Shown: in pieces, positions 264 to 3,005 of the stretch
Position numbering within the stretch: position 1 is the first letter of the stretch
How the letters are laid out: each line of letters begins with the position of its first letter
Assembly: GCF_027111315.2 (NCBI RefSeq)
Contig: NZ_CP114289.2
Location: 1,674,001-1,738,000 of the forward strand
Origin: Flavobacterium limnophilum
Lineage (GTDB): Bacteria; Bacteroidota; Bacteroidia; Flavobacteriales; Flavobacteriaceae
Reading direction: 5' to 3'
DNA: 64,000 nucleotides
Notes under the pieces: model-generated
Seen by the model: only the letters and a program-made list of their open reading frames with translations
Database searches by the model: none
Told to the model about the DNA's origin: nothing
Program-made: the position numbers and the translations under genes

Positions 264-1637
264 TTAAAGACTCGCTTGAACCTCTTCAGGATTGTGTTTG
301 TGTTTGAATAAAATAGCAAAAGCAACGGCAATTATCAAAGCATAAGTAGCAAAAGCCAACCAGATATCATGCCAATCTCTCATCATAATCACTTTATCAA
401 ACAAACCATCTGCATTTATTGCATTACCTTGAATCTTTACAAACTCAACCATTCTAGGATTCGTGCTTTCTGTTTGCAGAAAAGAAGCTAAATCAGTAGT
501 ATTACTAAATGATTTAGTAAAAAAACGTTCTATTGCCCATCCTGAAGTAAAACTTCCTAGTACAGCTCCTACTCCATTTGTCATCATCATAAACAATCCT
601 TGAGCCGAAGAACGATTTTTGGGATCAGTTTGTGTTTCAACAAATAAAGATCCTGATATGTTAAAGAAATCAAATGCCATTCCGTAAACGATACAAGACA
701 TAATAATCATCCACAATCCATCGACTGGATTTCCAAAGGAAAACAAACCAAAACGCAATACCCAAGCCAGCATACTCATTAACATAACTTGTTTGATCCC
801 AAAACGTTTCAAGAAAAAGGGAATAGCCAGAATAAATAAAGTCTCCGATATTTGAGAAATTGACATAATTATAGTTGAATATTTCACTACAAAGGAATCT
901 GCATAGATAGGAAAATGTTTGAATTCATCCAAGAACACATCGCCATAGGCATTGGTAAGTTGCAAAGCCGCACCTAAAAACATGGAAAAAATAAAGAACA
1001 ACGCCATTTTATAATTAGCAAACAATTTAAAAGCTTCCAATCCCAATGTCTCCGTCAATGAAGAATTCTCTTTGGTCAATCGCTGTGGCTCGCATTTTGG
1101 CAATGTATAAGAATAAATCCCCAAAGCAATAGCGGCAATCCCAGCTATATAAAATTGATAAGCTGTTGCTTTATTCCCTGTTAGATTTGTAATCCACATG
1201 GCGACAATAAACCCCACAGTGCCATAAACACGAATGGGAGGAAAACTCTTCACTACATCTAATCCACTTTTCTTCAAAGCATTATAAGAAATAGAATTAC
1301 TCAAAGAAATGGTTGGCATATAAAAACACATCGCCAAGAGCATAACGTATATAAAAGTTGTTGGAGTAGTAACTTCTGGTAAATAAAACAAAACCAACCC
1401 GTACAAAATATGAAGCGCACTATATAGTTTTTCAGCATTGACCCATCTGTCTGCAATAATTCCAGTTAGGGTTGGCATAAATAGAGAAGCAATCCCCATT
1501 GTGCTAAAAACTAAACCAAATTGAGTTCCTTCCCAATTTTTTGTTCCGAACCAATAGTTTGCAATAGTAATTAGCCAAGCTCCCCAAACAAAAAACTGGA
1601 GAAAGCTCATCAGCGTTAGACGATTCTTAATATTCAT
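264..1637 (-). CDS. Nucleoside:H+ symporter-type MFS permease
   Basis: This 457-residue polytopic inner-membrane protein has about 12 hydrophobic segments. The N-terminus MNIKNRLTLMSFLQFFVWGAW and the segment GIADRWVNAEKLYSALHI match the nucleoside:H+ symporter branch of the major facilitator superfamily (NupG/XapB type). Members import nucleosides using the proton gradient; the exact substrate cannot be read here. The start is the ATG at 1637. It appears to be a single-gene unit, with terminator 212-248 just after the stop. A separate hairpin terminator lies 110 bp upstream of the start, so transcription arriving from the RNA element at 1742-2024 would have to pass it. Family confident, substrate inferred. 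Confidence 0.82.
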   Translation of the reverse strand: MNIKNRLTLMSFLQFFVWGAWLITIANYWFGTKNWEGTQFGLVFSTMGIASLFMPTLTGIIADRWVNAEKLYSALHILYGLVLFYLPEVTTPTTFIYVMLLAMCFYMPTISLSNSISYNALKKSGLDVVKSFPPIRVYGTVGFIVAMWITNLTGNKATAYQFYIAGIAAIALGIYSYTLPKCEPQRLTKENSSLTETLGLEAFKLFANYKMALFFIFSMFLGAALQLTNAYGDVFLDEFKHFPIYADSFVVKYSTIIMSISQISETLFILAIPFFLKRFGIKQVMLMSMLAWVLRFGLFSFGNPVDGLWMIIMSCIVYGMAFDFFNISGSLFVETQTDPKNRSSAQGLFMMMTNGVGAVLGSFTSGWAIERFFTKSFSNTTDLASFLQTESTNPRMVEFVKIQGNAINADGLFDKVIMMRDWHDIWLAFATYALIIAVAFAILFKHKHNPEEVQASL

Positions 1638-1742
1638 AATAATGTAGGCTTAAAATTTAATGACAATTTATCTTGTGCGTAAATCTACCACTAAATTCAG
1701 ATATTCAAATTAAAATAAATAAAAAAATTCGCTCTAAATAAA

Positions 1743-1773
1743 AAAAAAACCATCCCGTTCTGCGGGATGGTTT
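1743..1773 (-). terminator. Intrinsic terminator of the candidate small RNA
   Basis: Perfect 11-bp arms (1747-1757 and 1763-1773), loop TTCTG. On the minus strand the stem is followed by an uninterrupted run of T (plus-strand A-run at 1741-1749), so the main direction is minus. Confidence 0.85.
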
Positions 1774-1828
1774 TTCTAACTAATTAACAAACTTAAAACT
1801 CTATATTCTTAAATCAGTAGGTTAAGTC

Positions 1829-1986
1829 TTAAAGCAGATTGTGGGGCAAACTCTTTAATTTCTTATTTTTTAATTTAACAGGTTAAGATTAAAGTAGATT
1901 GTGGGGCAAACTCTTTAAAATCTTCACAACATTTTTTTTAAATCAGATAAAATACAATAAAAGTAATTGTGGGGGCAATTCTTTAA
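1829..1986 (-). repeat. Three tandem hairpin repeats (A, B, C)
   Basis: Copies occupy 1829-1858, 1889-1918 and 1958-1986. On the plus strand each holds a G-run loop (TGGGG or TGGGGG) between inner arms agattg/caaact (A, B) or aattg/caatt (C), inside outer arms ttaaag/ctttaa (A, B) or taaaag/ctttaa (C, one mismatch). Copies A and B also share flanking GTTAAG. The 60-68 bp period and the preserved pairing point to RNA-level selection rather than a coding repeat. Confidence 0.7.
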
Positions 1987-2029
1987 AAATACTTGTTAAT
2001 TTATAGTAACGTTGTTTTTAATTCTTGAT

Positions 2030-2061
2030 CAAATATAACACTATTATCGATTAAAAACCAA
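2030..2061 (-). promoter_or_regulatory. Promoter-like element for the small RNA
   Basis: On the minus strand TTG (2059-2061) is followed after 21 bp by TATATTTG (2030-2037), matching the Bacteroidota TTG / TAnnTTTG pattern. Transcription would start near 2024. Confidence 0.55.
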
Positions 2062-2151
2062 ACAAAATCGACAAAATACACAAAAAAAACAATTAAATAA
2101 AAATTAACTTACAAATAAATCAAAACTTGCAAAAAAATAAAAATTGTGGAA

Positions 2152-2214: not shown

Positions 2215-2859
2215 TTATGGCGAAAGCCTGTCTATTTTCCATGAATAATCTTCCTGCAAATGATAGCGGATTCGGTCGTGCAATCTATTGGGTCTTCCTT
2301 GCCAAAATTCAACTTCCACAGGACGGATTAAATATCCACCCCAAAATTCAGGTCTAGGAATTTCTTTGCCTTCAAAGTCTTGTTCCAATTGTTTCAAACC
2401 CTCTTCCAAAACAGCCCTAGATGGAATAACCTCGCTTTGATTGGAAACAATCGCGCCCAACTTGCTTCCCGTAGGTCGTGATTCAAAATAGCCGTCGGAA
2501 ATATTCACCGAAGTTTTCTCGGCAATACCTTTGATAATGACTTGGCGTTCCAGCGAATGCCAAAAAAATGAAAGACAAATATTGGGATTATTGGCAATGG
2601 CCCTACCCTTTTCGGAATTGTAATTGGTGTAAAAAATAAATCCTTCATAAGTGAATTGTTTCAAAAGCACCACTCTCGATTTGGGAAAACCATCCAACCC
2701 AATGGTCGAAACCGTCATTGCATTGACTTCGTCCACACCGCCAAAATCCTCGACTTCGTAAAACCATCTGTTGAACAAGTTAATCGGGTCTTCCGGAATA
2801 TTCGTTTCCAGAAGCTCGCTTTTTTCGTAGGACTTTCTATAATTACCTATGTCTTTCAT
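2215..2859 (-). CDS. pdxH: Pyridoxamine 5'-phosphate oxidase
   Basis: This 214-residue FMN enzyme oxidises pyridoxine or pyridoxamine 5'-phosphate to pyridoxal 5'-phosphate in the cytosol. Length is typical. The N-terminal segment contains RVVLLK and FYTNYNSEKGRAI, which contribute to FMN and substrate binding. The C-terminus has the family ending, with EFWQGRPNRLHDR and the closing WKIDRLSP. The ATG start at 2859 matches the usual family N-terminus. The gene has its own terminator at 2152-2186. An inverted-repeat element lies about 80 bp upstream. Nothing unusual in the sequence. Confidence 0.95.
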   Translation of the reverse strand: MKDIGNYRKSYEKSELLETNIPEDPINLFNRWFYEVEDFGGVDEVNAMTVSTIGLDGFPKSRVVLLKQFTYEGFIFYTNYNSEKGRAIANNPNICLSFFWHSLERQVIIKGIAEKTSVNISDGYFESRPTGSKLGAIVSNQSEVIPSRAVLEEGLKQLEQDFEGKEIPRPEFWGGYLIRPVEVEFWQGRPNRLHDRIRYHLQEDYSWKIDRLSP

Positions 2860-2937: not shown

Positions 2938-3005
2938 TTTGTCATGCTGAAAGCGTCTCTAAGCGAGATGGAGCAACATAATTTAGACGCTTCCAGCGTG
3001 ACAAA
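2938..3005. repeat. MITE-like imperfect inverted repeat
   Basis: Arms of 21 bp (2938-2958 and 2985-3005) match with two mismatches around a 26-bp centre and begin with TTTGTCA(T/C)GCTG. It resembles small palindromic intergenic repeats common in Bacteroidota genomes. There is no coding capacity. It lies between the starts of pdxH and the 3' end of rnz. Confidence 0.6.

Follow-up and report, generated by a model that had tools for sequence, protein, structure and literature searches.

A short intergenic element on the minus strand of the Flavobacterium limnophilum genome probably encodes a sponge RNA, i.e., a decoy or target mimic, for a small RNA (sRNA) encoded next to sodA elsewhere in this genome, and this sponge would be derived from a gene for a CAP-domain lipoprotein, namely from its 5' leader. 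The element lies in the window, the stretch of 64,000 nucleotides (64 kb) that was analysed as a whole, and is arranged together with its neighbours as follows:

264..1637, minus strand: gene for a nucleoside:H+ symporter-type permease (PF03825), downstream neighbour and not part of the RNA
1680..1709, minus strand: separate promoter-like sequence of the permease, TTTGAATATCTGAATTTAGTGGTAGATTTA, seen here and in five orthologs
1744..2025, minus strand: predicted non-coding sponge RNA of about 280 nt (282 nt folded); orthologs have the promoter repeat, the sites and the terminator, too
1745..1775, minus strand: intrinsic terminator with 13-bp perfect arms (1745-1757/1763-1775)
1812..1858, minus strand: site 3, hairpin followed by GACUUAACCUACU; no place in the 64 kb scores better with the sRNA (-46.5 kcal/mol)
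1879..1918, minus strand: site 2, hairpin containing UUUGCCCCACAAUCUAC and, after it, CUUAACCUG; scores -40.1 kcal/mol against the sRNA core
1957..1986, minus strand: site 1, CCCCC hairpin, poor sRNA match (-18 to -19 kcal/mol)
2030..2061, minus strand: core promoter TTG-21-TATATTTG (TAnnTTTG box), predicted from sequence, with TTG at 2059-2061, a 21-nt spacer and TATATTTG at 2030-2037
2046..2075, minus strand: activator-type direct repeat TTTGTCGAT-12-TTAATCGAT, common to the CAP lipoprotein promoter
2215..2859, minus strand: pdxH (PF10590, PF01243), upstream neighbour

The promoter, the three hairpins with CCCC loops and the terminator had been described in an earlier note on this DNA, and that description is accurate. 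Its statement that no protein explains the stretch also holds: the minus strand carries no open reading frame (ORF) of at least 60 amino acids within 1742-2061, and the longest ATG-initiated ORF of the predicted transcript encodes 4 amino acids, with a range from 0 to 26 over 18 orthologous loci. Transcription is predicted to start near position 2025; a study on F. psychrophilum places the TAnnTTTG box at -12 to -5 (PMC9723704). The hairpins belong to a family of 36-nt repeats with three copies (1957-1992, 1889-1924 and 1829-1864, minus strand) that are spaced by 60 and 68 nt, two of them being 61% and 92% identical to the reference copy. Hairpin 1, with its CCCCC loop and its arms AAUUG/CAAUU, is the odd one out.

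The 282-nt RNA folds more stably than all of 200 shuffled sequences (z -4.5), while the same RNA without its terminator reaches a z of -2.5, with 3 of 200 shuffles equally good. Taken singly and with CCCC constrained to be unpaired, the hairpins are weak (-4.3, -6.4, and -5.4 kcal/mol), and when the whole RNA is folded together with its terminator, repeat 2 pairs with repeat 3 instead of each forming its own hairpin. Swapping the arms among 77 distinct sites weakened the mean from -4.38 to -3.90 (sd 0.11) and none of 300 swaps was as good, which supports a weak site hairpin; RNAalifold, in contrast, returned no consensus pairs from 23 sites aligned with MAFFT, which is probably due to a register shift of the left arm. 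In the cell the hairpin probably serves to expose CCCC for a first contact.

The candidate partner was first met as antisense matches to the site when the element was compared by blastn with 60 relatives. In the genome of the window (G000) the sRNA lies outside the window, at G000:C1:4065659-4065749 (about 1458-1548 of locus L065), flanked on one side by sodA and on the other by a gene that we take to be purF, for which Pfam gives a sub-threshold GATase_7 match on a truncated ORF. It is built from an ACCATAA/TTATGGT hairpin with the loop UUAGUAGGUUAAG, followed by AGAUUUGGGGCAAAA and a terminator, and contains GGGG. The sRNA genes are short, often arranged in tandem, and each has its own promoter and terminator. 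A blastn search with the sRNA gave a match in 127 of 150 genomes of the genus (E <=0.01), often in several copies and weak in 6 of the 127. An exact pattern of 33-34 nt occurs in at least 120 stretches, listed from Flavobacterium, Winogradskyella, Algibacter, Lacinutrix, Salegentibacter and others, including a few metagenome bins labelled otherwise, and 113 of the 120 listed have a SodA or PurF match no more than 1.5 kb away. The core is almost invariant across copies. No Rfam family reached the gathering threshold for the sRNA in the loci L065, L076, and L087. The sRNA is highly conserved in Flavobacteriaceae and has no Rfam family at threshold. A scan of four loci, chosen to cover the sRNA and a CAP gene, gave weaker matches that coincide with the terminator of an sRNA, for instance STnc40 (32.7 bits against a threshold of 45); the sole Rfam family at threshold there was a Flavo-1 RNA (76.6 bits) elsewhere in L065 (2425-2502, minus strand), upstream of sodA and near the sRNA locus.

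Complementarity between the CAP leader and the sRNA extends over about 37 nt with small interruptions. When the sRNA core was scored against both strands of the 64 kb in 12,792 overlapping windows, the top distinct places were site 3 (-46.5) and site 2 (-40.1), followed by a next-best place at -27.8 kcal/mol, with a mean of -12.9 and an sd of 3.5. Shuffle controls with 300 trials each averaged about -20 kcal/mol and had minima of -29.4 (shuffled sRNA) and -28.5 (shuffled window RNA). The exact 13-mer TTTGCCCCACAAT occurs three times in the whole genome, namely in the CAP leader, in site 2 and in site 3. A sponge or decoy is expected to match, over a long complementary stretch, the region through which an sRNA encoded in its own genome pairs; sites 2 and 3 do so, and site 1 does so weakly. 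Since the sRNA core hardly varies and leaves no covariation between the partners to score, we infer the duplex from these comparisons. The earlier note had proposed multivalent binding by the C-rich loops, either to G-rich mRNA or as a protein sponge. The non-coding, probably multivalent base-pairing RNA, a kind of sponge, stands; the G-rich partner is most likely the conserved sRNA and not an mRNA or a protein, and binding by the loops is incomplete as a description because the complementarity runs well past the loop.

The source of the repeats, which the earlier note had missed, is most likely the CAP lipoprotein leader. The blastn comparison with the 60 relatives gave matches in 21, and in a wider search 119 of 398 genomes of the genus had a match at 1e-6, with loci taken from the best 30 of these 119, which brought orthologs of the window element. 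In the loci inspected, most of the matches within the genus turned out to be 5' leaders of small genes for CAP-domain lipoproteins; Pfam confirmed PF00188 for both CAP genes of the window's genome, the second of which has lost CCCC from its leader. The site, TTTGCCCCACAATCTAC...CTTAAACTACTA, begins 33-43 nt before the ATG of 65 genes that were classed as CAP by sequence motif. Overall, 88 site clusters, drawn from the best-match loci up to L177 and from L298 to L326 and not a random sample, comprise these 65, one before an ORF that starts like a CAP lipoprotein, and 22 without an ORF; of these 22, two belong to CAP transcripts, in their 3' part, and another two abut contig ends, so that 18 genomes remain with one ORF-less locus each. 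In many other species a CAP gene with one or two sites in its leader occupies the slot after pdxH, and a pdxH pattern lies upstream of 45 of the 65 CAP leaders. For this reason the sponge most likely arose from a CAP gene whose ORF was lost and whose leader, to judge from the sequences compared, multiplied in part of the clade. In G003 a single-site ORF-less RNA is followed by an intact CAP gene. In L025 and L027, a second, perfectly complementary site, TTTGCCCCAAATCTAT, lies 3' of the CAP stop codon just before the terminator.

The ORF-less loci carry, diverged sites included, six sites in G251, three in G000, G315, G320, G191, G348, and G085, two in G249 and G292, and one in nine genomes. 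By pattern, pdxH lies upstream in 17 of the 18 (the remaining locus starts at a contig end) and the symporter downstream in 12 of the 18. With the sRNA of their own genome 33 of the 37 sites reach -30 kcal/mol or better, and the four weaker ones are the CCCCC sites of G000, G315, G320, and G251. In an alignment of G000, G315, and G320, 67 of 71 columns are conserved within sites versus 107 of 154 elsewhere (Fisher 1.2e-5). Among 16 aligned orthologous terminators (G003, whose terminator differs, and G292, in which none was seen, were left out) 94% of the cells pair, five of eight stem pairs changed on both sides, and the covariation score is 0.530 compared to 0.230 after shuffling (0/500 as high); two of the five measures fall within the shuffles, namely pairs changed on both sides (133/500) and further pair types (281/500). 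All 18 genomes with an ORF-less locus also contain the sRNA.

The CAP and sponge promoters share the direct repeat TTNANCGAT at a spacing of 21 nt. With up to three mismatches it occurs at 24 places in the genome, compared to 10 for a reversed control pattern, and the two best of the 24 are the CAP promoter (no mismatch) and the window promoter (one mismatch); the second CAP gene has three. The repeat precedes 29 of 42 ORF-less sites, a count that repeats multi-site loci and includes two-site CAP leaders and contig ends, versus 0 of 840 base shuffles. A looser form at 20-21 nt is found at 161 of 198 sRNA promoters versus 32 of 3960 base shuffles. Paired direct repeats of 9 bp, separated by about two helical turns, are reminiscent of LytTR-type regulators. 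A similar direct repeat with 20-nt spacing lies upstream of a lipoprotein gene at L357 (G000:C1:2905109-2905137), presumably gldK (gliding, type IX secretion), recognised by eye.

The circuit that we propose would work as follows. The sRNA would pair, via its single-stranded GGGGC and the hairpin loop UUAGUAGGUUAAG, with the 5' leader of the CAP mRNA just upstream of the AUG and would most likely block CAP translation; repression is the likeliest outcome because the duplex would lie over the stretch that directly precedes the start codon, and the opposite sign, activation of CAP by opening of the leader hairpin, is less likely. The window RNA would offer two strong copies of the leader site (2 and 3) and a weak one (1) without an ORF. 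When a shared regulator is switched on, sponge and CAP target would rise together, and titration of the sRNA by the sponge would relieve the repression of CAP and thus sharpen or permit its expression. A further proposal, which we hold at even odds, is that the sponge was born from a duplicated target leader, that its number of docking sites, 1 to 6 between species, evolves as a titration dial, and that it controls an sRNA conserved in Flavobacteriaceae.

Among the points against a sponge are the very poor pairing of site 1, whose variant is nevertheless present in four species, and the lone site in 9 of the 18 ORF-less loci, which would also fit a relic leader. Such a relic, the functionless remains (promoter, leader and terminator) of a CAP gene that has decayed, is improbable, albeit the strongest of the alternatives; the frequent occupation of the post-pdxH slot by CAP genes and the little pairing left in site 1 would also suit it. 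A functionless relic does not readily account for the multiplication of sites to six in G251, for sites that are better conserved than their spacers, for terminators that covary, or for the retained promoter repeat.

Slightly less probable still is an independent regulatory RNA, whose C-rich loops would act on other G-rich mRNAs or on a protein and whose match to the sRNA would reflect common origin only. Repetition of the loops is in line with it, as is the recurrence of the CCCCC variant of site 1 in G315, G251, and G320 besides the window's genome despite its poor fit to the sRNA. When the genome was searched by pattern for another partner of site 1, two places with 2 mismatches came up besides site 1 itself, and nothing better. 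In sites 2 and 3 the pairing spans the whole leader including a second segment, CUUAACCUACU, which lies outside the hairpin and far past the loop motif, and this argues for the sRNA as the partner.

The alternative kept by the earlier note, an attenuating leader of the permease, is very unlikely, and so is a riboswitch-like leader of this nucleoside symporter: the RNA shares the strand of the permease gene and its terminator precedes that gene, but a separate conserved promoter-like sequence (1680-1709) follows 3' of this strong terminator, here and in five orthologs, so that the terminator probably does not stand between the gene and its only promoter, and the repeats also occur before CAP genes. 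The Rfam search that the note had suggested, run with 4227 families, gave no match at the gathering threshold in the window and 31 sub-threshold matches around the element. A DNA-level repeat element (REP-like or a set of protein-binding sites) deserves just as little credence, because the units, short and repeated as they are, stand in one orientation with a promoter before and a terminator after them and in other loci in register with the AUG.

The sRNA itself appears, from the distribution of matches, more widespread than the putative CAP-sponge circuit. Matches to a model of the leader better than 5e-6, a cut-off that was set after the sRNA's own antisense matches had scored about 7e-6 and worse, were found in 76 of 121 clearly sRNA-positive genomes, in 0 of 6 with a weak sRNA match and in 0 of 23 negative ones, a count that ignores kinship and in which the matches were inspected in part. 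A match at leader level was absent in the other 45 of the 121. Of 16 genomes from other genera, the 12 with positions listed have their best match to the leader model at the sRNA itself. Together with one plausible other target among the inspected matches of other genera, these 45 genomes suggest that the sRNA must have other roles. This possible target is a short ORF (MNIATNLPELP...) of Algibacter luteus (L347), preceded by the same kind of promoter repeat and a site, TTGCCCCAAATCTACC.

Several known decoys resemble a real target and titrate its sRNA, such as the chbBC mRNA for ChiX, SroC for GcvB, and the 3'ETS-leuZ; whereas these are parts of mRNA or tRNA precursors, the window element looks like a stand-alone gene. 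Sponges of the CsrB/RsmZ type likewise consist of repeated hairpins with identical loops and act by multivalent titration, but they bind a protein via GGA loops, while the predicted partner here is an sRNA and the loops are CCCC. A sponge for a CsrA/RsmA protein was considered and rejected for the element, as it needs GGA loop motifs and the loops are CCCCA or CCCCCA. Nearest in logic, by analogy, is QrrX of Vibrio cholerae, a sponge RNA directed at the conserved region through which the Qrr1-4 sRNAs pair; it is described as a separate intergenic RNA that has a terminator and a regulated promoter of its own (PMC9732341). Promoter and terminator are predicted for the window element, too, and where QrrX is described there with one base-pairing region (PMC9732341), the window family has 1-6 tandem sites copied from a target leader. 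A flavobacterial sRNA conserved in its genus is Rfp18 of F. psychrophilum, whose predicted targets are metalloprotease and adhesin mRNAs and whose deletion lowers the mRNA of two metalloproteases (PMC9723704).

As far as titles and abstract openings show, the open-licence papers listed describe neither an element of this kind nor a sponge for an sRNA of flavobacteria, nor a natural sRNA sponge with tandem sites; sponge RNAs are known as a kind, and an ORF-less flavobacterial sponge with tandem copies of a target leader was not found there. To our knowledge, few sRNA circuits have been worked out in Flavobacteriaceae, and the relation of sponge valency to the threshold of an sRNA has, as far as we know, been approached mostly with engineered sponges. 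If the sponge reading is true, a complete predicted circuit of Flavobacteriaceae is at hand that consists of a conserved sRNA, a lipoprotein target, a dedicated sponge and related promoter repeats, and related species that differ in site number would offer a way to ask how sponge valency sets the sRNA threshold. It would also suggest a route for the birth of a sponge, in which a target gene loses its reading frame and its leader multiplies.

An inverted repeat at 2940-3004 of the window, starting near TGTCATGCTGAAAGCGTC and lying 3' of the gene on the hydrolase side, was noticed by eye and is perhaps an intergenic repeat.
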